Origin: Curtobacterium sp. MCLR17_032
GTDB taxonomy: Bacteria; Actinomycetota; Actinomycetes; Actinomycetales; Microbacteriaceae
Length of the DNA: 64,000 bases
Reading direction: 5' to 3'
NCBI RefSeq assembly: GCF_003234795.2
Contig: NZ_CP126268.1
Location: 744,001-808,000, forward strand
Below are positions 13,877 through 31,514 of the stretch, piece by piece; positions within the stretch are counted from its first letter, which is position 1; each line of letters opens with the position of its first letter. A program made the position numbers and the translations under genes. Under the pieces are notes generated by a model. The model was given only the letters and a program-made list of their open reading frames with translations. It ran no database searches and was not told the DNA's origin.

Positions 13877-14141
13877 CAGCTGCGTTCTTTTGGACCTGTT
13901 CGATGCTGGTCTGCAGCGCGGCTGCCGTTTCCGCTTCGACGAAGGTCGAGTCGAGCACGTGCCTCGACGGCGTCATGATCACGAGAACGAGCTGATGCCC
14001 AGTCGCAAAGTTTGGAAAGTCAGCGGGCGGCCGAGCCCGTAGTGCTGTTCCAAGGCGCTCCATGAGGTGCGGCTACGCGAAGCGCAACTAAAGACCAACT
14101 GTCGTGGAGCGTCCTAAGATGCGCTAAGCCCTGACCGGCTG
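13877..14141. other. Upstream flank of the decayed copy, no clear gene
   Basis: A minus-strand frame beginning with ATG at 14063 runs into the start region of the decayed copy; its first ~60 residues (FATGHQLVLVIMTPSRHVLD) could be a small unrecognised gene occupying the place of the 82-aa gene in the intact cluster. I cannot support it as real. Confidence 0.25.
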
Positions 14142-14182: not shown

Positions 14183-14542
14183 CTAGTTCTTGAAGGTGTG
14201 CACGTTCGGGAAATCCGATGCCTTGTGCTGCGACTGGTCGTCGGTGTTGTACCCCGGCTTGATAAGGGCATCCGTGGAATCGGTCTTCCACGTCGACCAC
14301 GTCGCATAACCCGTCGTCGGCACGGTATAGTGCACGCGAACCGACACCGCGCCGCATCCGCCCTTGACGTTCAGGCTCTCCCCCGATGCCTTGCTGGTGA
14401 TCGCCTTGTACCCATCGAAACCAGTCGGCGTCTGGTAACAGGTGTAAAACGTCGTGAGCGCGCTTGCCGGAGCGGCAGTCATCAGTGCCATTCCCCCTGC
14501 GAGTGCGGTACCTACAACGATCTTGATCAACTTCGACTTCAT
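14183..14542 (-). CDS. Small secreted protein, unknown function
   Basis: 119 aa with an AAAGGGG ribosome site before ATG. The first ~28 residues are a clear Sec signal peptide (MKSKLIKIVVGTALAGGMAL, ending near APASA). The mature part (~90 aa) is polar with two cysteines (YTCYQ and GGCGAV), rich in Thr, Ser and Lys, and ends SDFPNVHTFKN. It is divergent from the lipoprotein and exporter genes that begin 118 bp away. Size and context would fit a bacteriocin or other secreted effector, but I see no lactococcin-972 or other known motif, so function is open. Confidence 0.75.
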   Translation of the reverse strand: MKSKLIKIVVGTALAGGMALMTAAPASALTTFYTCYQTPTGFDGYKAITSKASGESLNVKGGCGAVSVRVHYTVPTTGYATWSTWKTDSTDALIKPGYNTDDQSQHKASDFPNVHTFKN

Positions 14543-14659
14543 TTACGTCCCCTTTGAGTGAACTGAACTGCAACCTGAGTCAATCTTGACTTTGGCGAGT
14601 GCTCCAGTCGGCATTAAAGGGGACAAAGTGATCGGGCCCCTGTCTGCTAGCTTGCCTGC

Positions 14660-15187
14660 ATGGGAAGCAGACGAAGCGGTCTCCTCGGGATGGCCGCGCT
14701 CGGGATCGCGATCGCAACCACGCTCGCCGGGTGCAGCGACGGAACGCCTGGCTCGGATCGCACGCCGGTGATGGCGTCGTCACCGTCTCCCGCAGCGAAG
14801 ATGTCGGCCGATCAGAAGGCTGCGCTGTCCGACAAGAGGGTCTCCTACGACGAGTATCTTGACGGGTGGAATCGTTACGTGGCGTGTGAGGCCGACGCAG
14901 GTTACACGGTGACCAAGACTGACGAGACGAACCAGGTGATCATGGGGCAGGTGCCTGATGGGGCCGTAAGGTCTGGTGTGGACGCGAGATGTTACGACGC
15001 CGAGTTCGCGCAGATCGACACGATCTGGCAGGTCTCTCGTGAGGACACGTCACCTCAGGCGAACGCGTTCCGAGAGTGCCTCGAAGCGCACGACGTGAAG
15101 CCGGCAAAGACCGAGCGCAAGATGATCGAGCAGCTCGAATCCAACGGTATTGATCGCGACGCTTGCCGCGACCGGTACATGCCGTGA
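14660..15187 (+). CDS. Lipoprotein, first gene of an exporter operon
   Basis: 175 aa. The N-terminus is a lipoprotein signal with lipobox TLAGC (Cys near residue 25). The mature region has a Ser/Pro-rich linker, then a ~120-aa domain with four cysteines (YVACEAD, ARCYDAEF, FRECLEAH, RDACRDRY) likely to form disulfides outside the membrane. No family is recognised. Its stop overlaps the GTG of the next gene (GTGA), so it is cotranslated with the adaptor and is probably an outer-surface partner of the transporter. Confidence 0.82.
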   Translation: MGSRRSGLLGMAALGIAIATTLAGCSDGTPGSDRTPVMASSPSPAAKMSADQKAALSDKRVSYDEYLDGWNRYVACEADAGYTVTKTDETNQVIMGQVPDGAVRSGVDARCYDAEFAQIDTIWQVSREDTSPQANAFRECLEAHDVKPAKTERKMIEQLESNGIDRDACRDRYMP

Positions 15188-16308
15188 CCCTGGGTCGCTC
15201 TAGACTGCGCGGGCGTTCGTGGGGCGTTCGCTACGTCTTGCCCCTGATTGGTATCTGGTTGGTCGCGGCGCTGATCGCCGCTGGAACTATCTACGTAGCG
15301 CCGATTGTTCAAGCTCGGGACGTCGACCAATCAGGTCCCACCTTCGTGCGTGTTGGGTTACGCGAGGACGCAGAACGCACCAGCGTCAATGTGAAGGTGA
15401 CGCCGCGGGCTCCTGAGGAAGTGCATGGATCCGTCGACGGTGTGGTGACCGCGGTGAAGGTCGCTGTCGGCCAGGCGATTTCGACGGGAACGCCGATGGT
15501 GACTGTCAGTGGGGTTACCGTTATCGGTTACGTCGCCGACGCTCCCTTGTATCGCCCCCTCGCCATGGGTGACACTGGCCCAGATGTAGTCCAGCTCTCC
15601 GGAATTCTCCACCAGATCGGTTACTTGACCGAGGCCGCAGCGGGATCCTCAACCTACGGCGCACCCCAGGTAGCCGCGGTGAAGCTTCTGCAGAGGGCCG
15701 CCGGCGCTCCCGTTGACGGGACCTTCACGTTGTCGCTCGTCGCCTGGGTCCCGACTACGAGTACCACGGTAAGCGAGATTCGTGCCGGCGTGGGCTCATC
15801 GGTGGCGGACGGAGCCGCTTTGGTTACGACGTCGGCAGAAGAGGACGCGGTCGCGGTGACGACCGCCGACGATCAGGCGGTGACCCCGATGTTCAGTGCG
15901 GGTGCGCTTGAGTTCAGCGCCGGAAGTCATCACAGCACCGTTAAGAGTCTCGACATGACGGGCGACGAAGTAACGGCCCTCGCTGCCGAACTGCGGGCCG
16001 CCGCCAATGCGAACGAAATCTCATCGCAGGCTCAAGGCAACGGCACTGTCTTCAACGGCGTAATTGTCTCCCTCGCAGATCCCCGCCGTGTGGGTGTGGT
16101 CCCGTCCAGCGCGCTTTTCGTGGCGCGCAGTGGCGGGTTCTGCGTATTCGAGCAGAAGGGAAACACTGTGCGGGCGGCCAAGGTGCAGGACCCTGGGAGT
16201 GTTGACGGGGAGCTAGGCAGCACAGCCGTTTCGGCCGACCTCTCCGGGCAGGAGATCGCGCGGTACCCCAATGCGCTCACGTCCTCGGAGCGCTCGAAGT
16301 GCATGTGA
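15184..16308 (+). CDS. HlyD/MacA-like adaptor with peptidoglycan-binding domain
   Basis: 374 aa from the GTG overlapping the lipoprotein stop; the 7-codon longer reading lacks support. There is one N-terminal membrane helix (YVLPLIGIWLVAALIAAG). After it comes a lipoyl-type hairpin half (GVVTAVKVAVGQAISTGTP) and a peptidoglycan_binding_1-type domain (about residues 120-180, MGDTGPDVVQLSGILHQIGY). The rest is beta-rich, ending in a barrel (GVVPSSALFVARSG). Such adaptors link MacB-type ABC transporters to the cell wall in Gram-positive bacteria. It overlaps the ATPase gene. Confidence 0.8.
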   Translation: MTLGRSRLRGRSWGVRYVLPLIGIWLVAALIAAGTIYVAPIVQARDVDQSGPTFVRVGLREDAERTSVNVKVTPRAPEEVHGSVDGVVTAVKVAVGQAISTGTPMVTVSGVTVIGYVADAPLYRPLAMGDTGPDVVQLSGILHQIGYLTEAAAGSSTYGAPQVAAVKLLQRAAGAPVDGTFTLSLVAWVPTTSTTVSEIRAGVGSSVADGAALVTTSAEEDAVAVTTADDQAVTPMFSAGALEFSAGSHHSTVKSLDMTGDEVTALAAELRAAANANEISSQAQGNGTVFNGVIVSLADPRRVGVVPSSALFVARSGGFCVFEQKGNTVRAAKVQDPGSVDGELGSTAVSADLSGQEIARYPNALTSSERSKCM

Positions 16309-16916
16309 CGGTCGCGGACGGGTCTTTGCTTTTTGGTGATCGAAGCGTTTTCCAGGACGTCCAAGCACGTTTCGATTCCGGGATGGTGTCGGCGATCGTA
16401 GGCCCCTCAGGGTCTGGCAAATCGAGCCTCCTCGCCTGCATCGCCGGCGAGATGGCATTGACGACCGGCACGATTGAGGTGGCCAGGGACGGGAACAACG
16501 AACCTCCGAACCCGACGGATGTGGTCTGGGTCCCTCAGGGTTCCAACGCGTTGGGTTCACGGTCGGCGATGGACAATGTCATGATCGGACCACTTGCGGA
16601 GGGCCGTTCTCCCGAGGCGGCGGCCCAGCTCGCGCAAGATGCGCTGCACCGGGTGGGCTTGGCGTCCGTCGCCTATCAGCGAGCACGGACTCTTTCCGGC
16701 GGCGAGTTGCAGCGGTTGGCATTTGCGCGGGCGCTTTCGACGAATCGGCCCATCATCCTCGCCGATGAACCCTCCGCGAGTCTCGACGCGCAGAACACTC
16801 ACGCCCTCGCCGGCCTCCTCGCTGAACTCCGACCTGCAGGGATCATCATCGTTGCCACCCACGATCCGATCTTGATCGATAGTGCCAGCCGCGTACTCGA
16901 TCTGAGACGCGCATGA
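16299..16916 (+). CDS. ABC transporter ATPase, MacB/LolD-like
   Basis: 205 aa, from GTG 16299 (GTG 16305, overlapping the adaptor stop, is equally possible). All ATPase motifs are present: Walker A GPSGSGKS, Q-loop VWVPQG, signature TLSGGELQR, Walker B IILADEPSASLD and H-loop ATHDP. The size and sequence class fit the LolD/MacB group that energises lipoprotein or peptide export rather than import. It is followed by the permease with an ATGA overlap. Confidence 0.92.
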   Translation: MHVTVADGSLLFGDRSVFQDVQARFDSGMVSAIVGPSGSGKSSLLACIAGEMALTTGTIEVARDGNNEPPNPTDVVWVPQGSNALGSRSAMDNVMIGPLAEGRSPEAAAQLAQDALHRVGLASVAYQRARTLSGGELQRLAFARALSTNRPIILADEPSASLDAQNTHALAGLLAELRPAGIIIVATHDPILIDSASRVLDLRRA

Positions 16917-17959
16917 GACTGCGCCGCGATAGCTGGACATTCGCTGCCCTCGCGCGTGAGGCTTGGAAGACGTTGGTCGACGGGAGCTCGATTTTCTACG
17001 TGCTGCCTCTTGTCGCGGTCCTCGCCGGTATCACCGGCGGTGTCCTCGCACTGCATGCCTCAGCCGGCCTCGACCATCAACTTGTCGTGGCTGACCGCGC
17101 TGGCGCTAACGTCCTGACGGTCCGGTCCGCGAACCAACGCGACAAAATCAAGATCGGCAGACGTTCCTGCGAGGCGCTCGCGGCTTCCCCGGACATCGAC
17201 GCAGCAGGCCTCGCCCTGCCGCTCCGCGACGTGTACGTCCCACAGCTCGGTAAGACGGTGCCCGTGATCGGTGCGAGCGCCTCGCTACTTCCCCAGCTGC
17301 AGTCCGCAGACGCCGTCGTCGGTTCGGCCATCACGAAGTCGAGCGCACTCACGCGGCTCAGGATCCCCGGAGCCGGACAGGCCCTACTGAGCATTCGAGG
17401 GAGGCCCCAGCCAGACGCCATCGGAACAAACTCGGCGATCGTCGTTCCCCTCAGCGTCCGCGTGCAGTCCGCGTCGACGTGCTTCGTGGTCGTGAACCCC
17501 TTGCGGAACGCTACCCGCGCAGCGCCAGTCGTGGTCGCAGAGCTCGACGTTGTCGGCGGCCCGGTCATCGCTCAGCCGGGGAGTGTTCCGACGTTCAATC
17601 CGGTAGACACCTTCACGGCGAGGCAAGACCAGTTCCTGCCGTTGGTGTTCGGCGGCGCCGGCGGGCTCATCTCCGCAGCACTAATCGCGACTCAGGGTTC
17701 GGCGTGGGCCGCCTACCGACTCAGTGGCACCTCCCGACGGTCACTCGCGACGATCTTCACGCTCCTATCCGCGATCCCCGGGGGCTTCTACGCAATTGCC
17801 GGGGTCGCCTTTACTGCGGTCGGAATGAGCGCCATGCACTCGCCAGGTGCTGTTGCCCTCGAGGTACTCGCTGGCGGGTGCGCCTGGACCCTCATTGGAG
17901 CTGCAGCTTCCCTGCTCGTCGTCGCGCGCCAGCCCACGAACCTCGCGAGGGACCGATAG
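16913..17959 (+). CDS. ABC transporter permease, FtsX/MacB-like
   Basis: 348 aa. One membrane helix follows a ~25-residue cytosolic start (IFYVLPLVAVLAGITGGVLA), then comes an extracellular domain of about 190 residues with two cysteines. Three C-terminal helices begin near residue 243 (FLPLVFGGAGGLISAALI). This is the FtsX/MacB topology. It completes a lipoprotein-adaptor-ATPase-permease operon whose genes all overlap. The exported substrate is unknown; the secreted proteins at 14183, 19139 and 19858 are candidates by position. Confidence 0.85.
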   Translation: MRLRRDSWTFAALAREAWKTLVDGSSIFYVLPLVAVLAGITGGVLALHASAGLDHQLVVADRAGANVLTVRSANQRDKIKIGRRSCEALAASPDIDAAGLALPLRDVYVPQLGKTVPVIGASASLLPQLQSADAVVGSAITKSSALTRLRIPGAGQALLSIRGRPQPDAIGTNSAIVVPLSVRVQSASTCFVVVNPLRNATRAAPVVVAELDVVGGPVIAQPGSVPTFNPVDTFTARQDQFLPLVFGGAGGLISAALIATQGSAWAAYRLSGTSRRSLATIFTLLSAIPGGFYAIAGVAFTAVGMSAMHSPGAVALEVLAGGCAWTLIGAAASLLVVARQPTNLARDR

Positions 17960-18236
17960 GTCCGAGGTCTTCACACGCCCTCCTCTATGACTCCAAGTCG
18001 CACTGACTGCCGTGCCTGTGCGGCAGCCTGATCCTCGGCTGTGCAACTCGCGTCAACCGCAACCTCTGATCCGGTGTGCGTCTCTCCCTCAGTTGGGCGG
18101 CGCAGGCCGCCAGCGGACGTAGCCGGACCACAGGCGGCGGTACCGAAGGACGACGGAGGAACAGGCGTGGTTCAACCAAGATTGCCGATCGTCGGCGAAT
18201 CCATCATCGATTCCGCCGTCTCCGTCAAGCTCGTGT

Positions 18237-18800
18237 GTGGCGCGCACCCCGAATACCTCAGCCTCAAATCCCGTGAACTACGCTGCAGCTTTAGCCGAGC
18301 TGAAGCACCAGGTGAGGGATGCGCAGTTCACGGCACAGCGGAGGCTGAACCCCAAGTTTGTGCGCCTGTATCGGCCGATCGGGTCATCGATTCCGCAGCG
18401 GCAGGAGGTTCAGCGGGGGATCAAGGTCATCGACGTGTCGCCGAGGATCTGCGTGCGGACTTCCGGGGATGAAGGGTTTCTCGCGTGCGAATTTCTTCTA
18501 CATGCTCCGTGTCGCTGCGGCTTAGCCGAGCGAGCAACTTGTGCAACAGCTTGTTGAGTAGCTTCCCCGGGGGCATCACGGTGCTCCTCAACCGTCTCGA
18601 TGACAGGGGATCCTGGGAGTGATACGCCGAGCGGGCCGTGCACCATGGGTGGTCTTGGAACGTCCTCGAGCACCACATCCGCACTGACGCGCATAGCCGC
18701 TGGGAGGCGGCGCCGTCGAAGTTCGCCGCGACGCTGCCTGCAGGGGAGTCGGATCTGTGCAGCAGATCACGAAGGACCCGTGCGTCCTTTGACGGGTAGT
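18237..18800 (+). pseudogene. YhcG/DUF1016 PD-(D/E)XK nuclease gene, N-terminal half, multiply broken
   Basis: The frame starts MARTPNTSASNPVNYAAALA, then AELKHQVRDAQFTAQRRLN and LYRPIGSSIPQRQ, the hallmark N-terminal domain of DUF1016 proteins. Continuing needs frame changes near 18440 and 18470 (DLRADFRG, then MKGFSRANFFYMLRVAA). A TAG follows near 18557, and a TGA replaces a codon before YAERAVHHGWSWNVLEHHIR. The remaining similarity (KFAATLPAGESDL, QQITKDPCVL) ends near 18800, before the nuclease domain. The gene is a relic of a defence- or toxin-type nuclease. Confidence 0.85.
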
Positions 18801-18871
18801 TTCCTTTTTCAGATAGTTTGTTTGCAAACGCCGCTGACGGCTGACCCTCGAACGACGCTCGGAGGCGGACA

Positions 18872-18908
18872 AGAAAAAGGAGAGACGCGCTCAAAGGCGC
18901 GCCTCTCC
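18872..18908 (-). terminator. Rho-independent terminator
   Basis: GGAGAGACGCGC and GCGCGCCTCTCC pair with one mismatch around a 6-nt loop. On the minus strand the hairpin is followed by TTTTTCTTG. It ends transcription of the 52-aa gene and probably the two secreted-protein genes upstream of it. Confidence 0.75.
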
Positions 18909-18919
18909 GATCTCTTCAG

Positions 18920-19078
18920 CTATGAATGGTCCGCCGTTCGTTGCGCCCGACGTTCGCGCGCTTCGGCGTCCTGACGCTTCTGTGTCGGTCCCTTCTTGAG
19001 GGATCCCCACACTGCGGTGCCGATCAAAATGAACGTAACAACAAGCACGATCGGGATGAAGCCCGGGAGCAGCAGCAT
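18920..19078 (-). CDS. Small single-span membrane protein, 52 aa
   Basis: Starts at ATG behind GAGGGGAACCTA. Residues 2-24 form one hydrophobic helix (LLLPGFIPIVLVVTFILIG), followed by a highly charged tail (KKGPTQKRQDAEARERRAQR). It lies 60 bp downstream of the secreted-protein pair on the same strand and just before a clear terminator, so it is probably the last gene of that operon. Function unknown; PLDc_N-like or immunity-type membrane peptides are possible roles. Confidence 0.65.
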   Translation of the reverse strand: MLLLPGFIPIVLVVTFILIGTAVWGSLKKGPTQKRQDAEARERRAQRTADHS

Positions 19079-19138
19079 TAGGTTCCCCTCGAGACCACGT
19101 TTGGGTCTAACTCTACCGATCCTACTCCGTCTGGGTGA

Positions 19139-19861
19139 TCAGTAGTTGGTCGTCCAGGCCCTCGACGTCGTCACCCGGAGAGAGACGTAGAGGTCCTCGC
19201 TTGAGCCGAGGCTAGTTGACTTGTACAGGGCGTGCTCCTGTGCGTAAGCCTCGATGGATCCGTTCTGCTTCTTCCGCTTGATGCTGACAGTCGGCGCTGC
19301 GACGAGGTTGCCGTACTTGACGACTGCGTTGGGCTTGTTCGCGGTGTCGATCTGGGCACCACCGGTGTAGCGCTCGTAGGTTGCGTTGAACCAGAGGTCG
19401 TACGGCCCGGTGGCAATCTCGACCTTGCAGTTGGACTCGACGACGTAGCCCCCACCGTTGGACTCCTTGCAGCCTGTGATCTGCTGCGGCTGGAGCGAGC
19501 GTGTGCCCGCTTTCGCGCCTGCGCTGGTGGTTTCAGGCGTCTCGAGCGAGGTAACCGCGACGGAACCGTCTGGGTACACGGAACGGCTCACGAGCTCCGT
19601 CGACGTTTCCACGCTAGTGCTACTCGTCGGCTGGACGGATTGTGACATCGAATCCAGGAGCTTGCCGCTGTCGAGCTTGGCGATGAGCGCGTCTTGTGTT
19701 GCCGAGGAGATGCCTTGGCTGGTGAACCAGTCACGGAGCGCGGTCTGGTCTTGACCGGAGGTTGCGGCGGTAGCGGGAGCTGCGCTGAACATGCCGACGA
19801 CGAGCGTGCCGGCGATGGCGGTAGCGATGGCGATCTTCTTGGTTCGGTTCGTCGTGTTCAC
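19139..19861 (-). CDS. Secreted protein, paralogue of the upstream gene
   Basis: 240 aa from GTG 19861, overlapping the upstream stop. The Sec signal peptide ends near FSAAPATAA. The mature N-terminus has a conserved unit, LRDWFTSQGISSATQDALIA plus LLDSMSQ, shared with the next gene upstream (MRDWYAARGV, LMDSMREG). Then follow a Thr/Ser linker with SVYPDGSVAVT, a two-cysteine stretch (TGCKES, ESNCKVE) and a beta-rich end. I recognise no family. The tandem arrangement suggests a two-component secreted factor. Confidence 0.75.
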   Translation of the reverse strand: MNTTNRTKKIAIATAIAGTLVVGMFSAAPATAATSGQDQTALRDWFTSQGISSATQDALIAKLDSGKLLDSMSQSVQPTSSTSVETSTELVSRSVYPDGSVAVTSLETPETTSAGAKAGTRSLQPQQITGCKESNGGGYVVESNCKVEIATGPYDLWFNATYERYTGGAQIDTANKPNAVVKYGNLVAAPTVSIKRKKQNGSIEAYAQEHALYKSTSLGSSEDLYVSLRVTTSRAWTTNY

Positions 19862-20598
19862 CAGGAGCCTCCCTTGGTGCTGATCGCCTTGTTGCTGCCG
19901 ACCTTGAGGGAGAGGCTTGCCGTAAACGACCCGCCGCCCCTTGAGGAGTTGTAGACCGTGGTGGCGGTCGCAGTTGCCGGTCCCGACGCGTTCTCGTTCT
20001 TCTTGGTGATCTTCAGAGATGGTGTCGGTGCCGTGCCGGCAATCGCGTACGCGTAGGGTGCGGAGACTTCGTTGATGAGATCGTTGTTGCTGCCCTGCAC
20101 GATGTCGTACGTGGCGTGGAAGGCGACCTGCAGGAAGCTGTTGTCCGCCGCTACGACACAGTTGTTATACCGAGTGTCGTAGTGGCTTGGTGTGGTGCTG
20201 GCGCACTGCCCCACCGACTGAGCCGTCACGGCTCGACGGGAGACACCGGCGCTGTTGCCGGTGTTCGGGTTCTGGATTTCCGTCTCGGAGATCGAACCAT
20301 CCGCGAAGACCGACTGTGTGACGGTGAAACCGTCACGCTGCAGGGTCGTCATCGAGGTCGGTGTCTGACCTTCACGCATCGAATCCATCAGCGTGCCGCT
20401 GAGGAACTGGTCGATCAGCGGGTCGTAGGTCGTTTCGGGGACGCCGCGTGCGGCGTACCAGTCGCGCATGTGTGCCGAGACTGCAGCGTCATCGCTTGCA
20501 GCGGAGGCGGAGACGGCGGGAACGAGCGTGAGGCCAGCGACGGTACAAACCGTTGCCGCCGCGACGCTCAAGCGCTTCCAACGTGACTTCAGAACCAT
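19858..20598 (-). CDS. Secreted protein, first of a tandem paralogous pair
   Basis: 246 aa from an ATG at 20598. Signal peptide MVLKSRWKRLSVAAATVCTV, cleaved near AVSASA. It shares the architecture of its downstream neighbour: helical start unit, SVFADGSISETEIQNP segment, two cysteines (VGQCAST, NNCVVAAD) and a beta-rich C-terminus (SLKITKKNENAS, SFTASLSLKVG). The stop overlaps the GTG of the neighbour, so equal synthesis is likely. Role unknown; secreted toxin, bacteriocin-like or wall-associated functions are all open. Confidence 0.75.
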   Translation of the reverse strand: MVLKSRWKRLSVAAATVCTVAGLTLVPAVSASAASDDAAVSAHMRDWYAARGVPETTYDPLIDQFLSGTLMDSMREGQTPTSMTTLQRDGFTVTQSVFADGSISETEIQNPNTGNSAGVSRRAVTAQSVGQCASTTPSHYDTRYNNCVVAADNSFLQVAFHATYDIVQGSNNDLINEVSAPYAYAIAGTAPTPSLKITKKNENASGPATATATTVYNSSRGGGSFTASLSLKVGSNKAISTKGGSW

Positions 20599-21566: not shown

Positions 21567-22592
21567 TCAGTTGGGCAGGTTGTGGCGGAGGTCGTACCCT
21601 GTGTCGGCGAGGAACTGGAGACGGTTTCGCACTTCCTCGAGGGACGCTGCGTCTTCGTCGTTGCGCAGGTCGGCGCGGAGGAGCGTGTTGGCGGTGATGA
21701 TGTCGTCGGTGCGGTCTGCGTAGCCGGCGGCTGCTGCGGTGAGGAAGATGGTGGGGTCTGCTGGCCGGATGAGTTCGGTGCCGGAGTAGCCGACGGTGTC
21801 GGGTTCGAACCCGAGCGCTGGCATGTCGAGTTCCTGTTCGGTGAACGCGACGAGCCGGTACGGCATCGCACGTTTGCTGATCGCCGGGTAGCCGGGCCGT
21901 TCCGAGATTCCGCGGCCGGAGATGCGGCAGCCCGCCTCGATGAGCCGTTCTGATTGCTTGATGAGTGGCAGGTCGGATGTCCACCGGGTCCTGACACCGC
22001 CCGGTCCCGGATAACAGGCGATCGCAAAGTCCACCAGCCCACCCACCTGCCGTGACTCCCACCCGATCCGGGTGCGGTGCACGCGATTGCCGAGGCGTGC
22101 CAGCGCGTCGTCCACCTGCCCAGCAGTTAGCCCGGCCCACACCAGTCCGTCGAAGGTGGAGCCGTTGACCGCGAGCATTCGTGCGACTGCGAAGGTGACG
22201 TAGATGGGGGCGGCGTCCTTCCATCGTTCCTTCGTCCCGAGTATCTGCTTGCCGTCGATCCATACGCGGCGGCGGTCGACGTCGACCAGCACCACCGATG
22301 CGGTTTGTTCCGCGAGCGCGATTTGCGTGGCGGTGACGGTCCGTGGTGCCAGGAGGAGCAGTTCCGCGTCGTTCGGGTCGTCGTTGCGGGGGCGTTGGGT
22401 GAGGGTGGGGAGGCGTGCGCGGCGGCCGTCGGCGAGGCGGATCGTGTCGTGCGACTCCACGACCGCGCGAAGCCCGGCGAGTTTCAGGACGGTGAGGGTG
22501 TTGGTGAGGTCGGTGGTGTCGCCCAGCCCGTACGGCAGCGTGAGCTGCGGTCGGCCGCTGTATGCGGCGTTGACCCATTCGAGCCCAGGCAT
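21567..22592 (-). CDS. HTH-containing protein, AbiEi-like topology (last gene of an unknown cluster)
   Basis: 341 aa from the ATG that overlaps the previous stop (TGATG); its start MPGLEWVNAAYSGRP aligns with the start of the paralogue at 24016. Order: beta-rich N-terminal domain (LTLPYGLGDTTDLTNTLTVL), a VDVDRRRVWIDG strand pair, then a winged-helix-like segment (NGSTFDGLVWAGLTAGQVDD) followed by GWESRQV. The C-terminal domain (YPGPGGVRTRWTSD, PYRLVAFTEQELDMPALGFE) ends with DRTDDIITANTLLRADLRND. The order HTH, Trp-containing link, late V-x-D-ll element resembles actinobacterial AbiEi-type antitoxin/regulators. That is a fold-level guess, not an established assignment. Confidence 0.75.
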   Translation of the reverse strand: MPGLEWVNAAYSGRPQLTLPYGLGDTTDLTNTLTVLKLAGLRAVVESHDTIRLADGRRARLPTLTQRPRNDDPNDAELLLLAPRTVTATQIALAEQTASVVLVDVDRRRVWIDGKQILGTKERWKDAAPIYVTFAVARMLAVNGSTFDGLVWAGLTAGQVDDALARLGNRVHRTRIGWESRQVGGLVDFAIACYPGPGGVRTRWTSDLPLIKQSERLIEAGCRISGRGISERPGYPAISKRAMPYRLVAFTEQELDMPALGFEPDTVGYSGTELIRPADPTIFLTAAAAGYADRTDDIITANTLLRADLRNDEDAASLEEVRNRLQFLADTGYDLRHNLPN

Positions 22593-22840
22593 CAGCAGCT
22601 GCGGCCCTCCGAGGTGTCGGGTTGGGTGAGGGCGATGAGCCAGCGGGTTTCTTCGAGGAACGGTTCCCACCCGTCGCGGGTGTCGCCGTGGGCTGGTTCG
22701 CAGATGTTGCCGGTGTCGGTGCTGCGAATGATGACCTGCCGCAGCTCGCTGCTGGGCGGGTCGCGGAAGAACACCTGCCCGTGCACCCCGGTCACGTCGT
22801 AGGCGACGTTCAGGAGGAACAGGTCCGGGCGGCTGCTCAT
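22592..22840 (-). CDS. Small beta-module protein, 82 aa
   Basis: The ATG overlaps the preceding stop (ATGA), which I prefer to the in-frame ATG 9 nt upstream; the stop overlaps the next ATG (TGATG). The whole protein is one copy of a module repeated through the cluster: hydrophobic strand LFLLNVAYD, then GVHGQVFFRDP, a variable strand and a final helix (FLEETRWLIALT). No known family. Probably binds its neighbours or a shared ligand; this is inference from coupling and repetition. Confidence 0.65.
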   Translation of the reverse strand: MSSRPDLFLLNVAYDVTGVHGQVFFRDPPSSELRQVIIRSTDTGNICEPAHGDTRDGWEPFLEETRWLIALTQPDTSEGRSC

Positions 22841-23700
22841 GGTCGCCACCGTCGTCCGCGGAACAGGGCGATGATCGTCGTCAGCGGTCGTCCTTCCCGC
22901 ATCCAGTCGAGCGGTGTCAGGATCCGGTTGTCGACGGTGAGGAAGTCGAGGGGTGTGGTCATGAACTCGGTCATTGCGGCCGCGTCGAGGAGTGGTTGGG
23001 GTGCTGCCGCGTAGAGGACGTCGAGGCCGGGCAGCAGTGAGGACGGGTCACCGAACTCGGGGAGTGCGGGTCGGACGAGTTGCCAGTCGGGGATGCGTTC
23101 TTCCCCGTCGAGGTCGAAGCTCGTCAGCCGGTTCGCTTCGAACAGCTCACCGACCTCGTCGATGCTGATCTGCAGTGCGGCAGCGACTTCTGGTTCGGTG
23201 AGGGTGGTGTTGAGGAGGTTCCGGCGGATCCGGGCTTGCGTGGTCTGCCACCAGTCCTCGGGAACGTCCGCCGGACCGACAGCACTGTGTGCGGGTTGGC
23301 GCGGGATTTGTCGGCCTTCGTCGGCGTAGGCGCTGAGTTGTTCGCGGGTGACTTCTCCGCGGGCGTACATCCATAGCTGCGACTGCCACGGCATGTCGTC
23401 CGGGAACCCTTCCAAGTAGCCCGAGTGAATGACCGCCCGAACCGCTTTCTCCCGTCGCGCAATCTCGGAGGCGGGGATGAGGAGGGTCTGCACGATGCGG
23501 TTCGCTTCCCGCACCGCCGGCACCGTCAGGTCGGACAGGACCGTGTTGTTCTTGTCGTAGAGCTCGTACCCGGGCTCGACGTCGGTGGGGCGGACGAGGA
23601 TCTGCGCCAGGTGCGCGTCCGGATTCTCGGTGTCCTCGAGGAGCACGTGCCCCCAGAGGATCCGGTCGTTCGACAAGTGCAGGGACACCAAACGCATCAT
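22837..23700 (-). CDS. Beta-module fused to HTH and MbcA/ParS-like domain
   Basis: 287 aa from ATG 23700, with GGAGG nine bases upstream (TTG 23706 is less likely). Residues 1-85 are the cluster's small module (RLVSLHLSNDRILWGHVLLE). The middle is helical (DMPWQSQLWMYARGEVTREQ). From about residue 180 the pattern TEPEVAAALQISIDEVGELF with DLDGEERIPDWQL reads as an HTH. It is followed by LLPGLDVLYAAAPQPLL and TPLDWMREGRPLTTIIALF, which resembles the C-terminal region of MbcA/ParS/Xre-type antitoxins. A DNA-binding regulator or antitoxin role is suggested. Confidence 0.7.
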   Translation of the reverse strand: MMRLVSLHLSNDRILWGHVLLEDTENPDAHLAQILVRPTDVEPGYELYDKNNTVLSDLTVPAVREANRIVQTLLIPASEIARREKAVRAVIHSGYLEGFPDDMPWQSQLWMYARGEVTREQLSAYADEGRQIPRQPAHSAVGPADVPEDWWQTTQARIRRNLLNTTLTEPEVAAALQISIDEVGELFEANRLTSFDLDGEERIPDWQLVRPALPEFGDPSSLLPGLDVLYAAAPQPLLDAAAMTEFMTTPLDFLTVDNRILTPLDWMREGRPLTTIIALFRGRRWRP

Positions 23701-23740
23701 CAGCAACTACCTCCAAAGCAATGGGCGTGAGCAGGGCAGG

Positions 23741-24016
23741 TCAGGGCTGCGGGAACTCGGCCCCGGTGCGGCCGATGCGCTCCGGTGTGTAGCGGAGGAG
23801 GAACCGCATGATGCGATCCGCCTCGACCATCGCCAGCACCGCCGGATCCTGACCGTGCGGGTCGACATTCGTGAGCCGGAACCAGGGCGGTTCGTCGACG
23901 TTGTCGATGAGGACCGTCGGCGGTGGAGCGCCGGTGTGGTCGGGGTCGGTGAACATGACGGCGCCGAAGAACCGCGCGTCGTCGTAGGCCAACGTCAGCG
24001 ACAACAGCTGCAGCAT
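23741..24016 (-). CDS. Small beta-module protein, 91 aa
   Basis: ATG at 24016 shares its A with the previous stop (TGATG). The protein is one module: LLSLTLAYDDARFFGAVMFTD, then a strand TVLIDNVDEPPWFRL and a helix AMVEADRIMRFLLRY. It aligns well with the N-terminus of the 287-aa protein downstream (40 bp away) and with the 82-aa protein. Unknown function. Confidence 0.65.
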   Translation of the reverse strand: MLQLLSLTLAYDDARFFGAVMFTDPDHTGAPPPTVLIDNVDEPPWFRLTNVDPHGQDPAVLAMVEADRIMRFLLRYTPERIGRTGAEFPQP

Positions 24017-25044
24017 CAGCCCACCCCGCCCTCACCGCTGCCGGGGTGCCACCGAAGGTCGTGGGCGAGATCGGACCGGAAGTGCAGCAGCTGCCGCAAC
24101 CCGTTCACCGCATCCGTGTTCGCGGTAACCCAGCTGTCCTCGTAGAGGACGTGCGCGGTGATGAAGTCGTCCGTGCAACATCCGTCCGCGCCGGTCAGGA
24201 CGGTGGTGTCCTGCGGGATGACGACCGACACCGTCGCCTCGTTCACGGTGGCGGGCTCGTAGCCGAGCGAGGCCATGTCGGGGTGGTGGGCGAAGAACGC
24301 CGTCAGCCGGTTCGGCGGGACGATGACGCCGGACTGCTGCGCCGCCCACCGATCCGACATCACCCCACCCAGCGCAATCAGCTGGTCCGCCTGCTCGTCG
24401 ATGGTCGTGTCGCGGCGCCAGCAGGTTCGTACGCCGCCGTAACCCGGGTACGCCGCGAAGGCCCAGTCGCACAGGGCGGCGCGGTCGGCTGCTTCCCACC
24501 CGATCGGCGTGAAGAACACGTGTGTCCCGAGAGCAGGCATCGCGGCACGCACAACATCAAGTGGAATGCCGATGCGGTCCGCAATAGCGCGGCTGCCGCC
24601 GCCGTGGAGGGCGATGGCGCGGGCGATCGCGAACACGGTCCGCCACCCTGGGGTCGCTTCCCGTTGCATCGACGTGCTGGACAGCTGCCGCCCGTCAGCC
24701 CACACCCGCCCGCGTTTCCCGTTCACGACCACCAGGTCGGGGTATCGGCGCACCAGTGACAGCACCCCGCCCTCGGACCTGCCGGGCAGGAGGATCACAT
24801 CATTCACCCGGCCCTCGCCGCCGTCGCCGTCGGTGACGGTGGTGGTCGGGTCCGGGGTGGCGAGAAGCGCCGTGCGGCCGTCGTCGAATCGGAGCCGGTC
24901 GAACGTCTCCACGCGTGCGGTCAGCCCGGCAGCAGCGAGGGCGGTGAGGGTCTCGGTGATGTCGATCGTGTAGCCAAGCCCGAACGGCAGCGACAGCATC
25001 GACTGCTCATGCCGGATGGTCCGCACCCACTGCCGGTCAGACAT
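24016..25044 (-). CDS. HTH-containing protein, paralogue of the 21567 product
   Basis: 342 aa. The ATG at 25044 overlaps the stop of the preceding gene and aligns with the paralogue's start; the ORF could open 13 codons earlier without support. Shared landmarks: LSLPFGLGYTIDITETLTAL, VNGKRGRVWADGRQL, HTH segment (RAIADRIGIPLDVVRAAMPAL), GWEAADRAALCDWAFAAYPG and the late DDFITAHVLYEDSW. Overall identity to the 341-aa paralogue is modest but the order of all blocks is the same and the lengths differ by one residue. Probably a specific-ligand version of the same regulator or enzyme. Confidence 0.75.
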   Translation of the reverse strand: MSDRQWVRTIRHEQSMLSLPFGLGYTIDITETLTALAAAGLTARVETFDRLRFDDGRTALLATPDPTTTVTDGDGGEGRVNDVILLPGRSEGGVLSLVRRYPDLVVVNGKRGRVWADGRQLSSTSMQREATPGWRTVFAIARAIALHGGGSRAIADRIGIPLDVVRAAMPALGTHVFFTPIGWEAADRAALCDWAFAAYPGYGGVRTCWRRDTTIDEQADQLIALGGVMSDRWAAQQSGVIVPPNRLTAFFAHHPDMASLGYEPATVNEATVSVVIPQDTTVLTGADGCCTDDFITAHVLYEDSWVTANTDAVNGLRQLLHFRSDLAHDLRWHPGSGEGGVG

Positions 25045-25354
25045 CAGCCGCACCAGCCGCTTCAGGACCACGCCCCACCGCACGAAGCTTCGACAGTGCG
25101 TCCATCACTTGAGTCGCTGCCTCACGCAGCGGGTCCGCAGGATCCGACAATGGTGTTCCGTTCAGGAGCGTGAACACCCACCCGTCTTCGCTGGTGCGGA
25201 CGTTGACGGTCCGCTGCAGGATCTTCGGCCCGGTGGAGTTCGTGAACGTCATTCCGGCCAACGTCGGCCAGATCCCGGCGTCGAACTGCGCCGACAACGA
25301 CAGCAGCCGCAACGGCACCGGCTCGAATCGCAGCGCCGCCCCACGCTCAGGCAT
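25037..25354 (-). CDS. Small beta-module protein, 105 aa
   Basis: Starts at ATG 25354, overlapping the upstream gene's last codons (ATGCCTGA), and ends over the next start. Residues 10-90 carry the module in a diverged form (LRLLSLSAQFDAGIWPTLAG, RTVNVRTSEDGWVFTLL, AATQVMDALSKL). The tail is Ala/Gly-rich. No known family. Confidence 0.6.
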   Translation of the reverse strand: MPERGAALRFEPVPLRLLSLSAQFDAGIWPTLAGMTFTNSTGPKILQRTVNVRTSEDGWVFTLLNGTPLSDPADPLREAATQVMDALSKLRAVGRGPEAAGAADV

Positions 25355-25940
25355 CGCCAGCCAACCGTGGGTCGTCTTCGGAGAGCCGCTCGAACCCGAG
25401 CCCTGATGCGTCGAGGATGGCGTTCTCTGACTCTTCGGTGGCTACGAACGACCCGATTTGCGCGTTGATCGCGACAAGAGTCCCGATCCGACTCCGCGCG
25501 TCCAACACGACCGCGGCGACCTCCTCAGCCGTGCAGTCAGACGTGAGCTCCGGCTTCGATGGGTGCAGGGCAGGGAACTCGAGTTGCTGCACCGGCGGGT
25601 GCCACTTCACACCGATGCGCAGCACACGGCCGTCGGTGTCGTTGCGGTAGAACATCGACCCGAACGGGTGCCCCATGTCGAGCGTGAGGTCCGCACCGTA
25701 CAGCGTCCAACCCTTGGCCGCGTAAGCGGGATCCCAACGCTGGACGGTGAGAGCACGGAGCCCCATCTTTAGGCCCGGGATCAGCGCCTGGCCGTCCTGC
25801 AGTTCGGCGTAGAGGGCCTGGAGGTTCGGGGGACTCTGGTCGCGCAGGTCCGATAACGGGATGCGCGCCATGCCACGAATCGCGGCGAGCTGCTGACGCT
25901 GCTTCGCGGTCAGCGCCGTCTCGTCGGGGCTGCCATTCAC
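25347..25940 (-). CDS. Unknown protein with a beta-module, first gene of the cluster
   Basis: 197 aa from ATG 25940; no strong ribosome site is visible and the frame is open a little further, so the start is provisional. Residues 1-75 are helical (KQRQQLAAIRGMARIPLSDL). Residues 80-165 look like the module again (GADLTLDMGHPFGSMFYRND, LRIGVKWHPP, VVLDARSRIGTLVAIN). It leads a run of seven minus-strand genes, most joined by stop-start overlaps. No family recognised. Confidence 0.65.
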   Translation of the reverse strand: MNGSPDETALTAKQRQQLAAIRGMARIPLSDLRDQSPPNLQALYAELQDGQALIPGLKMGLRALTVQRWDPAYAAKGWTLYGADLTLDMGHPFGSMFYRNDTDGRVLRIGVKWHPPVQQLEFPALHPSKPELTSDCTAEEVAAVVLDARSRIGTLVAINAQIGSFVATEESENAILDASGLGFERLSEDDPRLAGDA

Positions 25941-26348: not shown

Positions 26349-27149
26349 GTGGACCGCAACCTCACCATCAGCAACACCCCCATCACGACCTGCACGCAGA
26401 CGACGCACCACATCCACAGCGTCGAGGAGCTGCAGCAGCTGCGCATCGCCCTCCGCCGAGCCGACCGCCGAGGCCGGCAGGAGTTCACCTGCCCGATGAT
26501 CCGTGCCTGGCGCCGTCAGTTCGTCGACACCTACGCGGTGGACGCCACGTTCACCCCGAGCGATGCGTCGCAGTCGGACAAGACGGAGCTGCACGGCAGC
26601 CGCGTGCTGGAGGCCGACATCCAGGTCGGCAACGTCCTGGTGCGCTGGCACTGCGACGGATGGCCCGTCGCCACGCCCCGCACCGCGGGGGAGACCAACC
26701 TGGACGGAGATGCGCTGCAGCCGGCCCCGACGCCAGCGCCGAACGACCCGAACTGCTTCGGGTACGCGCACCGTGTCCCCGCCGCGATGCTTCCGCCCAC
26801 CCGCAAGTACGACCACCTCGAGGGTGCCCAGTGGCGCTCCACGCGGAACCTCATCGAGCAGCAGAACGCCGACCAGCAGAGCGTTGAACACTGGGCCTCG
26901 AACGCGTCTACGCCGAGTCAGTGGAGCTACCTGCCGGGTGTCAGCCAGCGCGTCCAGCTCGACGCGACCCCGTCGCACGCTGCGGACAACTCGACCGGCT
27001 CCCGCGAGTCGAACTACAAGCCCGGCTGGTACGACCAGCGACCGGCGACGGCGTTCCGACACGCGCCTTGGGTCATCGAGCTGATCGTCATGAAGCGCGA
27101 CGCGTCCGAGTCTGAGCCGAGCCTCCTCGACCCTGACCTCCTCGACTGA
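26349..27149 (+). CDS. Hypothetical cytoplasmic protein, 266 aa
   Basis: GTG start with GAAGGA 8 nt upstream. No signal peptide or membrane helix. Residues 25-60 are helical and basic (SVEELQQLRIALRRADRRGR), followed by a stretch with HGSRVLEADIQVGNVLVRWH. A Pro-rich linker and an Asn/Gln-rich region with many Trp and Tyr (GWYDQRPATAF) follow, then an acidic end (ESEPSLLDPDLLD). I recognise no family. It stands alone, divergent from the seven-gene cluster and closed by a strong hairpin. Confidence 0.6.
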   Translation: MDRNLTISNTPITTCTQTTHHIHSVEELQQLRIALRRADRRGRQEFTCPMIRAWRRQFVDTYAVDATFTPSDASQSDKTELHGSRVLEADIQVGNVLVRWHCDGWPVATPRTAGETNLDGDALQPAPTPAPNDPNCFGYAHRVPAAMLPPTRKYDHLEGAQWRSTRNLIEQQNADQQSVEHWASNASTPSQWSYLPGVSQRVQLDATPSHAADNSTGSRESNYKPGWYDQRPATAFRHAPWVIELIVMKRDASESEPSLLDPDLLD

Positions 27150-27923: not shown

Positions 27924-30900
27924 TCACTGGTGCCGCGTGCGGATGTTAGGCCGCCGATGTGTGAGGCAGGCGGAGCAAGGCAAAGCGCTCACACCGTCGT
28001 TCCGGTACTCGCAGTTCGGACAAGACCACCACCTTGCTCCTTCCGCTGTCTCGAGGTCGGCGCCCGCCGCAACGCGAATCGACCAGTCGTCGTCCTGAAA
28101 GCATCTTGCGAGCAGTTCGTGAGCGTTCGGGCTCCCCGCCAAGACGAACGCCGCATGCGCAGCCGCGAGGCGCACCGCTGGGCGTTCCCGGGCAAGCATG
28201 TCGACAGCTGTGCGCGCTTCGTCTGTTGAAGTTCCAATGACGGACAGCGCGACGTTGTGAGCAGCGTCGGCGCTCAGATTGGCGTCTTCCATGTCATCTG
28301 CGATGGCCAGCCCGTGCTCACCGCGGAGGACGTACTTGAGGGCCGCGTTACTGAAGTGCGGGATAGGTGATCGCAGCAGCTTTTCTACGCGCCGCCGGTC
28401 GTCGTCGGTGAACCGGCCTGGGTCAGCTGTTGGTGATTTCGTGTCGCGGCAGAGCAAGAATAAGGCTCGAGTCAGGTCGTCCCAGTCAAGGCTCAGCGCG
28501 TAGCAAGCGTCGGATCTGATCGCGGACCAGTCGGCCCCCGTGGCGGTGACCGCGAGGTCGAGCCAATCGTGCAGTTCGACAGGGTCCGCGTCGACAAGTT
28601 GCGAGCTTTCGGGGAGGCCGAGTTCACCGACCGTTGTCGATTGTAGAAGAGCGGCCAATGCACTGAGACGCCATCGCTCCGAAGTGATCGGGCTTGCATT
28701 GGGTGCTGCGATCGGGAGAAGTAGCCACTCGAATGATAGGTACGCATCGTGTGACCGCAGCCCGCGCAAGTCGAACCCATTCGTGTGACGTTCTGGCTCC
28801 GGGTCGACGTACCCACGCGCTTTGAGCGCGGCTGTGCCGCGTTCGTAATCGTTGGACGCACTGCGCCACAACGCATCGAATACCCAGGAAACTTGCGCTG
28901 GACTCAGCACAATGTTCGATTGAGCGATCCGCGTGGCAAGCGCATCGATACCGGCTCCGAGACGATCGGACCCATCGATCATGAGCGCTCCGGTTCGCGT
29001 GTCGTATTGTGCTGGACCGGAGGGCTTGCGAGCGACCGCGGTAGCGTTCATCGTTTGCAAGACAGCGTCAGGCAACTCCGTCTCAGCGTCAGCGTCAGCA
29101 TCTGCGACAGCGGCGATGGCTGCGAGGACTCGGCGATGTTGCATTGCCGGCACGAGGGCATCGAGCGCTGCATCTCGCTGCTCTCGTTCTGACGGGTCGA
29201 CGGGAAGCGAGGCGGCCGATTCGATGATGTCGTCCCTGAGCATCCCGGCCCGTCGAAGCTGCTCCGGCAAAGTTCCCCCTCCGATATGGGACGGCATGGA
29301 CGGTGCCGCGGTGAGGAGGTCCTCCTGGAGTGCCGCGATATCAAGCATTCCGACACCGCGCTCTCTGATCCATGTAACGAGTACCCGCGTCGCTTCAACG
29401 GTTGTGTCTGTCGGGCTTCGGAGACGTTCCTGGATGGCACCGAGGAGTCCGGGTACCAGTGCTGCGGCGAGAAGGACCGCTTCGCGTCGTCCTTCTACCT
29501 GCAGGGCCGTGTCCAACCATTCGCCGAAGCGGTCAGGCGCGCACCCGTTCAGCCAGAGTGCGTCGGTGACGTCGGCCCAGCGTCGCGATCGAGCGCGGAG
29601 GTCGTCGCCTTCGCGGGTTAGGACGGCGGCTCGTTCGTCCCAGAACCAGATGAGCTGTGGAGCGATCGCGGACCGGATGGGCTGCGGTAGCTCCCACCGT
29701 TCAAGCGCGCTGACAGCGATCTCCTCGGCGGTGGCGAAGGGGAGCCTCTCGTCTGTGGCGAGCGCATGCCCCAAAGCAACGATGACGTCCAAGGCCATCT
29801 CGTCCCGGACTGCTGCATCCCAGCCGCCGGGGGGAGCGCCGGCGGTCCGCACGTCCCGTTGCAGGTGTGCGCGTTCTTGGATGACGACAGGGAGTAGGTC
29901 GCTGATTGAGGCTTCTATGATGCCGTGGCGAGCGACGTGGGAGGCCAGCAGGGACACGTGCATGGGGGTGTCGAGCAGTGCATCGGAGCCGCGGCCAGCG
30001 CGAGCCCCCTTCAGATACCACTCGGACCGCTTCGCAATCCATGCGCCGCGCTCGCTATCGGGGACGTTCTGCCTCCGGGCCTCATAGGACAAGATCGCGT
30101 CGACCGCCCGTTGCGCTCCGCCGCTGAAAACGAGGGTCGTGCGTTCGAATCCGAGTTCCTCGGCGTCAAAAACTGCCGCCGCTCCTGGCCGCGAGGTGAC
30201 GACCCAGCCCACCTGGTTTGGTATCTGCTCGACCAGACGGCGCAGATCCGAAAGCACGCGCCCGAGCATTGCGAATGTTTCGTCCAAGCCGTCGATGAGG
30301 AATACCGCGTGACCACGGTGTACCGCCTCGACGATCGCGTCGACGACGTCAGAGTGATGTTCCGAGTTGGCGGCGGCCGCGGCAAGAGAAGCCAAGAGCT
30401 CAAGCGACAACCCTTCTCCTGTCTCAATCCGGTGAGCGACCGCCGCAAACCGGACCAACACGGGCAGAGGTGCTGAGGAATCGGATGACCAGCGCGCCGC
30501 CAGCTGCTCAAGCATCGTGCTTTTGCCCATGCCTGGGAGCCCACTGACCAGGAGCCGGCGTACCCGACGGGCGACCAGCGAAGCATCCTGCGGCAACGTT
30601 CGGTCCTTCACCTGGGGCCGATCGAGGTCCCAGTCCGAAAGTAAGTCGTCCACCGGAACCGTGGGCATACCTGGAACGAGCGTGGCCAAGTCGAGCAAGT
30701 CGGTACGGGCTGACAAGGCTGCTCGATAGCTTTTCTCGCACCTAAGTCGTAGCGCTTCTCGGCGGCCAGGTGGGCCGTTACGATCGGCGACGACTTCGAG
30801 GCCAGCGTCCTCCAGTGCGGTGACCCAGTCCTCTAGCGTGGTCCGTTCTTGCCGACGCGCTGCGACGGCGAATCTGCGTGCCAGTACCTCGAAGGCCGCC

Positions 30901-31514
30901 GCACCGCGTCCGTGCCCAACAAGTTCTTTGAGACGCTCTTCGGTGACCGTCCGTTGCAGGCCGTCGTCACCTGTGTCGCATGTGAAAAAGCGAGCCTGGC
31001 GGCGAAGCCGTTCGCGCAGGGACGTGTCCACGAGTTCAGCTACGTGAAGCACTTTCTCCGCGTTGGCCTGCGCTGCCTGGTTTGGGCGCTGTCCTCGAGA
31101 GCTCCGGTCGTAAGTGAAGACTGCTTGCGCGTCGACGATCGGACGGCTGAAGTGGGCCGACGCCATTACAACCTCGTCGCCGTCGTCAAGGACTTGTCGA
31201 GCCCACTGGGCCGCGGTCTTTCGGAAGGGCTCAGCGAGAGTCCCGCGAACCTTTGCCTGGATGAACCAGGTCGTCCCGTCCGACATCTCGCATCGGATGT
31301 CGTCCGTGGCGTCGGTAGTTTCTAGGTCGATCGCCGTCGGTACCGCTTCTAGGTCCGGAGCGACTTTCTCGGCGTACATCCCTGCGACCGCGAGATACGC
31401 GGCGACTCCCGCGCGGTGGTCACTACCGAGTTCGTTGCTCGCGCCCCCGCTCATACCTTGCCGTGCAGGCGCTTGCGCCGTTGGCTCACGCGAGACCCGC
31501 GCCCCGGTTGTCAT
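27924..31514 (-). CDS. Nuclease-NACHT/STAND NTPase with C-terminal zinc ribbon (probable anti-phage defence)
   Basis: 1196 aa from ATG 31514 (ATG 31454 is an alternative). Residues 28-130 look like a Cap4/Mrr-type PD-(D/E)XK fold (GSDHRAGVAAYLAVAGMY, then TDDIRCEMSDGTTWFIQAKV with the D and QAK signature). The NTPase has Walker A GLPGMGKST (Lys near 331), Walker B FLIDGLDE (Asp near 408) and VVTSRPGA. A long helical repeat region follows to about 1150 (VRLAAAHAAFVLAGSPN). The end is a zinc ribbon (CPNCEYRNDG, then CSAC). STAND NTPases with nuclease fronts are known bacterial immune sensors; here the trigger is unknown. Divergent from the DUF4209 gene. Confidence 0.85.
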   Translation of the reverse strand: MTTGARVSREPTAQAPARQGMSGGASNELGSDHRAGVAAYLAVAGMYAEKVAPDLEAVPTAIDLETTDATDDIRCEMSDGTTWFIQAKVRGTLAEPFRKTAAQWARQVLDDGDEVVMASAHFSRPIVDAQAVFTYDRSSRGQRPNQAAQANAEKVLHVAELVDTSLRERLRRQARFFTCDTGDDGLQRTVTEERLKELVGHGRGAAAFEVLARRFAVAARRQERTTLEDWVTALEDAGLEVVADRNGPPGRREALRLRCEKSYRAALSARTDLLDLATLVPGMPTVPVDDLLSDWDLDRPQVKDRTLPQDASLVARRVRRLLVSGLPGMGKSTMLEQLAARWSSDSSAPLPVLVRFAAVAHRIETGEGLSLELLASLAAAAANSEHHSDVVDAIVEAVHRGHAVFLIDGLDETFAMLGRVLSDLRRLVEQIPNQVGWVVTSRPGAAAVFDAEELGFERTTLVFSGGAQRAVDAILSYEARRQNVPDSERGAWIAKRSEWYLKGARAGRGSDALLDTPMHVSLLASHVARHGIIEASISDLLPVVIQERAHLQRDVRTAGAPPGGWDAAVRDEMALDVIVALGHALATDERLPFATAEEIAVSALERWELPQPIRSAIAPQLIWFWDERAAVLTREGDDLRARSRRWADVTDALWLNGCAPDRFGEWLDTALQVEGRREAVLLAAALVPGLLGAIQERLRSPTDTTVEATRVLVTWIRERGVGMLDIAALQEDLLTAAPSMPSHIGGGTLPEQLRRAGMLRDDIIESAASLPVDPSEREQRDAALDALVPAMQHRRVLAAIAAVADADADAETELPDAVLQTMNATAVARKPSGPAQYDTRTGALMIDGSDRLGAGIDALATRIAQSNIVLSPAQVSWVFDALWRSASNDYERGTAALKARGYVDPEPERHTNGFDLRGLRSHDAYLSFEWLLLPIAAPNASPITSERWRLSALAALLQSTTVGELGLPESSQLVDADPVELHDWLDLAVTATGADWSAIRSDACYALSLDWDDLTRALFLLCRDTKSPTADPGRFTDDDRRRVEKLLRSPIPHFSNAALKYVLRGEHGLAIADDMEDANLSADAAHNVALSVIGTSTDEARTAVDMLARERPAVRLAAAHAAFVLAGSPNAHELLARCFQDDDWSIRVAAGADLETAEGARWWSCPNCEYRNDGVSALPCSACLTHRRPNIRTRHQ

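Follow-up and report, generated by a model that had tools for sequence, protein, structure and literature searches.

A conserved seven-gene operon of AbiEi-like and Fic-antitoxin-like parts in Curtobacterium

We analyzed a 64,000-nucleotide stretch of DNA (the window; positions 744001-808000 of the 3.71-Mb, single-contig genome of Curtobacterium sp. MCLR17_032, contig NZ_CP126268.1), in which seven minus-strand genes, here named A to G, run from window position 25940 down to 21567. They form a conserved operon in which two AbiEi-like paralogues (C and G) accompany a three-part protein with a predicted Fic-antitoxin fold (E), small beta-domain proteins (B, D, and, less clearly, F), and a protein of a separate conserved family (A). 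At a probability of roughly 40%, we read this operon as a toxin-antitoxin-like module, probably defensive, that derives from AbiE, lacks a nucleotidyltransferase, and has A as its candidate effector.

RESULTS

Gene order, selection, and linkage

The frames that a preliminary description had placed at 25347, 25037, 24016, 23741, 22837, 22592, and 21567 were all present, as were the overlaps it had seen at every junction but one. Neighboring genes overlap by 8 bp (A/B and B/C), 1 bp (C/D), 4 bp (E/F), and 1 bp (F/G); D and E alone are separated, by 40 bp. This gap holds a strong predicted ribosome-binding site for E, TTTGGAGGTAGTTGCTGATG (GGAGGTAG at 23707-23714, minus strand), which other copies keep with small changes. 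The fixed stoichiometry once deduced from translational coupling does not follow, since overlap does not imply it and E has a ribosome-binding site of its own.

A scan of species-level genome contigs returned 19 loci. Without L028, which a contig end truncates, and with both copies of the present genome counted, there were 20 complete loci, four of which (L019-L022) are near-identical to each other. The order A-(B)-C-D-E-F-G was kept in all 20, with A, C, D, E, F, and G always present and B present in 12. By frame calls, C is damaged in L011 and E in L013 and L018, and G of L020 lacks the usual start. Purifying selection acts on every gene of the operon: the median ratio of nonsynonymous to synonymous substitution rates (dN/dS; 9 to 17 copies per gene, with L020-L022 and L028 excluded and two E copies truncated) ranged from 0.16 for G to 0.38 for F. 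Because the order recurs in 20/20 loci and the medians lie in this range, the operon is more than a product of chance, and selection and conservation together rule out chance reading frames. Between most copies, similarity at the DNA level starts 16 to 45 codons into A and stops within about 100 bases of the G stop codon. The neighboring genes mostly vary from copy to copy; some pairs share extra flank (for example, the window and L019-L022, upstream of the operon), and some sites recur.

Conserved linkage had been set beforehand as a test of the cluster, and it was found by the order above and by a survey of 66 Curtobacterium genomes. The A profile gave 37 matches in 27 of these genomes and the C/G profile gave 103 matches in 34, while E occupied 37 places in 28. 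Every A match lay within 1.6 kb of a C/G match, and 36 of the 37 lay within 1 kb. E genes or large pieces of them were within 1.6 kb of C/G in 37 of 38 cases. The 37 selected E places, from which two second halves of split genes, a stray 172-residue piece in G028, and matches weaker than an E value of 1e-12 had been excluded, all had C/G no more than 1 kb away, and 36 were within 4 kb of A. Six of the matches weaker than that limit make up our list of stand-alone VbhA relatives. Linkage of E and A was counted with 82 of the 103 C/G matches, leaving out 21 shorter pieces, and the A count was repeated with all 103. Twenty-two of the 103 had no A within 5 kb; many of these are short relics.

Outside Curtobacterium, linkage of the operon parts is looser. 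A-like genes occurred in 10 of the 299 family genomes drawn, in three genera including Curtobacterium. C and/or G relatives and A are co-located in G069 and G213, and in G151 A stands near an E-like gene with no C/G nearby. Divergent versions of the operon retain some parts and alter others. The variant of G002 (L059 and L060) has an A-like gene, an extra small gene, a C/G-like gene, and an E-like gene, followed in L059 by a further downstream gene. That of G213 (L062) has a gene for the C-terminal part of E, a small-domain gene, a C/G-like gene, a pair of A-like genes, a short gene resembling E, and the extra gene, and that of G017 (L106) joins C/G-like and A-like genes to a third gene.

The window also holds a decayed second copy (12967-13964, minus strand), consisting of an N-terminally damaged G with internal stops and 82% DNA identity and of a remnant of the helix-turn-helix (HTH) of E (E value, 1.5e-5). 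An additional operon, without B, lies about 0.5 Mb from the window copy in the same genome. Short C/G fragments, mostly 3' ends, are scattered beside intact operons or alone in G004, G010, G017, G018, G019, G032, G035, G046, G047, G050, and G060, which suggests frequent loss of copies. Positions 1-2212 of L061 and 18806-21017 of L014, one locus being from Curtobacterium and the other from another Microbacteriaceae genus, are 99.8% identical in DNA, and both lie near an operon of this family; either an island was transferred recently or the identity reflects contamination.

Genes C and G

C (24016-25044, minus strand; 342 aa) and G (21567-22592, minus strand; 341 aa) are paralogues with 34.5% identity (E value, 1e-44), as had been noticed, and the HTH-like middle attributed to both is predicted in G to be a winged helix. 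In the G model, whose predicted local distance difference test (pLDDT) score is 70, this winged helix spans residues 124-200 approximately (21993-22223, minus strand), between an alpha/beta N-terminal part and a C-terminal part.

By family kinship, C and G appear AbiEi-like, which supports the relationship first proposed for them. We built a nucleotidyltransferase profile from seven neighbors of C/G relatives and found a match beside the relative in 15 of 17 non-Curtobacterium loci (L064-L080), six of the 15 having supplied sequences to the profile; the exceptions were L078 and the G213 operon (L064). The 17 loci leave out the C/G matches in G105 and G114 and the second match in G109. Three plasmid loci and two separate Curtobacterium loci (L107 and L108) had the enzyme next to a C/G relative as well. 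Four of the seven nucleotidyltransferases match Pfam AbiEii at E values up to 1, the best being 2.6e-4. The profile had no match in L010-L029 (20 loci, one of them cut), in the window, or in the variants L059-L062, and none in L105, L106, L109, or L110. C and G thus look AbiEi-like, but AbiEii is absent, and the operon is not an AbiE system.

At an E value of 1e-5, relatives of C/G were found in 19 of 199 Microbacteriaceae genomes, three of which are Curtobacterium genomes including the present one. Relatives also occurred in 5 of 296 genomes from other Actinomycetota, again counting the present one. Fourteen plasmid records from Rhodococcus and Frondihabitans also matched; three were read, and two were typed as conjugative. 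A separate subgroup of full-length C/G-like proteins (E value, about 1e-67) exists in Curtobacterium, comprising L105 and matches in G062, G011, and G051.

Gene E

E (22837-23700, minus strand; 287 aa) is predicted to be a fusion of a small beta domain (residues 1-75; 23476-23700), a VbhA-type Fic-antitoxin fold (residues 74-134; 23299-23481), and a Rv2175c-like DNA-binding end (residues 160-283; 22852-23223), all on the minus strand. The modeled first part is a four-stranded beta sheet with a helix. The second part keeps the inhibitory glutamate, E97 being aligned with E24 of VbhA. It sits in the sequence S-G-Y-L-E-G (residues 93-98; 23407-23424, minus strand), a form of the inhibitory motif (S/T)xxxE(G/N); the motif was found in 80 of the 90 readable sequences, P0005 included. 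The Pfam VbhA score of E falls below the cutoff.

The C-terminal end is predicted to combine a winged HTH with an MbcA/Xre-like tail. Its likeness to the Xre/MbcA-type antitoxins of 8gug and 8qnl, solved toxin-antitoxin pairs of the Xre/RES type, is too weak to show kinship. The junction of an HTH and an MbcA/ParS-like end, and hence an antitoxin-like end, had been recognized at the outset, and both stood; the VbhA-type middle had been overlooked.

Genes A, B, D, and F

The remaining proteins had been described as small proteins of one kind. This holds for B (25037-25354; 105 aa) and D (23741-24016; 91 aa), which appear from profile comparison to share the beta domain of E, and less clearly for F (22592-22840; 82 aa), all minus-strand genes. 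Against the N-terminal 75 residues of E, single-profile hhalign gave 98% for D, 96% for B, and 49% for F; D against F gave 38% and B against F gave 2%. With a broader small-domain profile, F reached 94%; reversed-profile controls cover the single-profile set and not the broad-profile comparisons.

The description fails for A (25347-25940, minus strand; 197 aa), which scored 6-12% in hhalign and was rejected as a member of the small-domain family. A is instead a separate conserved family: its counterparts in L059-L062 joined the Curtobacterium A proteins by profile comparison (99.8%), and that of L106 matched the A profile at an E value of 7e-32. Its GTG start is uncertain, given where DNA homology to most copies begins, although some copies align from residue 1 at the protein level. 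No family above the cutoff was found for A in Pfam, PADLOC, PHROGs, or NCBIfam.

The same four collections assigned none of the seven proteins to a described system above the cutoff, in keeping with the initial view of an unassigned cluster, although in several strains E carries the NCBI name "antitoxin VbhA family protein." In PADLOC-DB 2023, no component matched a system model, and two weak matches had E values of 0.01 and 0.041. The seven proteins contain no Fic domain by Pfam and no RES family by Pfam or NCBIfam. Among the open papers listed by literature searches, none appeared from its title or the opening of its abstract to describe the operon.

Genomic setting and promoter region

The flanks of the operon are rich in defense genes. 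At an E value of 1e-5, 174 PADLOC families matched 110 operon-flank proteins and 19 families matched 110 control proteins, a crude count in which a single large protein may match many models. The flank proteins were hand-picked before any scan, out of 163 called plus one of L022, and the controls were drawn at random from 155 proteins of 17 fixed-position regions. Ten large flank proteins were scanned singly, and seven had matches: a type I restriction enzyme, AbiU, Tmn, SoFic, a PDC-S53 protein, a methyltransferase, and a weak TnsB. Pfam added HamA and AbiV. A Fic domain was found in 1 of the 110 flank proteins, and the SoFic of L012 lies about 3.6 kb from its operon; for the one Fic match of the present genome, the distance is about 0.38 Mb to the window and 0.09 Mb to the second operon.

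The heptamer TTACTAT, which has modest dyad symmetry, occurs seven times in 368 kb of loci, and six of these occurrences lie 24-65 nt before A, in 6 of 17 loci (L010, L016, L018, L023, L024, and L025). It is likely a promoter or operator.

Several features of the window surround the operon. G+C content is 0.61-0.68 over positions 1-40000 versus 0.70-0.75 over 40001-64000, and this shift suggests that the operon lies inside a large foreign or variable region. Upstream, a NACHT ATPase of 1196 aa (27924-31514, minus strand; PF05729, E value 5.8e-11; PADLOC PDC-M54A, E value 1.3e-7) is likely a separate defense gene. A divergent gene beside A (26349-27149, plus strand) has no family above the cutoff; it also stands upstream of the operon in L011, L019, L021, and L022 and may be linked to one operon lineage. 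Between the operon and the decayed copy, positions 14222-20598 hold secreted-looking small proteins, an ABC transporter ATPase (16299-16916), and an HlyD-like protein (15163-16308), which to the eye resemble a bacteriocin cluster.

DISCUSSION

The simplest reading of the operon as a toxin-antitoxin-like module is that C/G and E repress it and restrain an effector, A. C and G, each with an extra N-terminal domain, a winged helix, and a C-terminal domain, would most likely bind the operon promoter and keep the system off. E would supply a second DNA-binding or antitoxin arm through its Rv2175c/MbcA-like end, and its VbhA-type arm might be able to occlude a Fic active site. These arms would be tethered through the small beta domain that E has in common with B, D, and probably F; since this domain is shared, B, D, F, and E may assemble on one another. 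A would stand where relatives have the nucleotidyltransferase toxin and is the prime candidate effector; in Curtobacterium it was found solely near C/G.

Several observations weigh against this interpretation, the crudeness of the PADLOC count among them. No toxin domain was recognized in the seven proteins by Pfam, PADLOC, PHROGs, or NCBIfam, and A has neither a family nor a fold assignment. C and G match no Pfam AbiEi family, and the G model is only moderately confident and matches no known fold over its full length. Divergent E proteins have lost the VbhA motif, and some intact homologues have it in altered form. The window copy lacks TTACTAT, as do 11 of the 17 loci in all. Linkage has exceptions: G044 has E and C with no A match, G043 has a full-length G-like gene without A or E, and a piece of E (residues 115-286) in G028 has no A or C/G closer than 335 kb. 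In genus g35, four genomes have A-like genes, and the two loci read contain no C/G or E. Finally, the Curtobacterium locus L105 has C/G but neither A nor a nucleotidyltransferase, so the lack of the enzyme is not unique to the operon.

Among the alternatives, the operon could possibly be an array of antitoxins without a toxin, whose pooled AbiEi-like, Fic/VbhA, and Xre/MbcA-like parts neutralize the toxins of incoming plasmids, islands, and rival systems in anti-addiction or counter-defense. Every recognized domain of the operon is of an antitoxin or DNA-binding type, which fits the absent toxin domain, and the copies are many, with relics and varied sites. The genus also offers matching targets: for four of the six stand-alone VbhA relatives a Fic match is 165-174 bp away, and C/G-like genes are paired with nucleotidyltransferases in G018, G043, and, by coordinates, G055. 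Strong nucleotidyltransferase matches occur, however, in only 4 of the 66 genomes, the changes in the Fic-inhibitory motif noted above would be unfavorable, and no antitoxin role is known for A or the small domains. Anti-addiction by chromosomal loci is itself an established idea (PMC12548467). In the fullest form of the array, one polycistron would unite antitoxin parts of three unrelated classes and, having been copied and passed among genomes, would give a general shield against the toxins of plasmids, islands, and abortive-infection systems; this strikes us as the more doubtful version, ranking below the regulatory scheme that follows.

It is unlikely, if less so than that fullest form, that the operon encodes a complex through which a genomic island controls transcription, in which antitoxin-derived DNA-binding proteins regulate neighboring genes and no toxin is involved. 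The winged or HTH domains predicted for C, G, and E and the likely promoter or operator before A in several copies would suit such a role, as would relatives of just the C-terminal part of E, which occur in 17 of 299 family genomes, many with weak E values. The neighbors mostly differ between copies, however, leaving no constant target outside the operon, and neither A nor B/D/F would be explained. A selfish cassette that owes its persistence to spread and duplication and not to any benefit for the host would account for the multiple copies per genome, the relics next to copies, and the patchy presence, but it is improbable, given the purifying selection on every gene and the absence of any transposase, integrase, or relaxase family by Pfam from the seven proteins.

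If the operon is a toxin-antitoxin or defense module, it shows AbiE-type antitoxins that have parted from their nucleotidyltransferase and become, together with a Fic antitoxin, components of a larger machine, and it points to A as an effector family so far unrecognized. Should it instead be a toxin-less array, bacteria would have a counterpart to the orphan antitoxin-like enzymes reportedly found in phages, and the anti-addiction hypothesis would become directly testable. Either reading gives a testable role to Curtobacterium genes nearly all of which lack a named family.

Comparison with known systems

AbiE is bicistronic. Its AbiEi protein is described as having a winged helix and a C-terminal domain and as serving both as antitoxin and as repressor, and its toxin, AbiEii, as a nucleotidyltransferase (PMC3985639). 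The C/G family resembles AbiEi in mostly adjoining an AbiEii-like nucleotidyltransferase elsewhere and in its predicted winged helix and C-terminal part. The operon differs in having six or seven coupled genes, two paralogues, an extra N-terminal part before the winged helix, no Pfam AbiEi match, and no nucleotidyltransferase beside C/G, and the name "AbiE system" was rejected on this last ground. Likewise, residues 74-134 of E share with VbhA the predicted fold, the inhibitory helix, and the glutamate at the E24 position, whereas the operon has no Fic gene, its VbhA part shares one protein with a beta domain and a DNA-binding end, and the motif is not universal; with no Fic beside the operon, a "VbhA/VbhT pair" was rejected too. 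Unlike the Xre/MbcA-type antitoxins of 8gug and 8qnl, the tail of E has no RES-type toxin gene in its operon. Rv2175c, for its part, is a stand-alone protein, whereas here the Rv2175c-like part forms the end of the three-part E.

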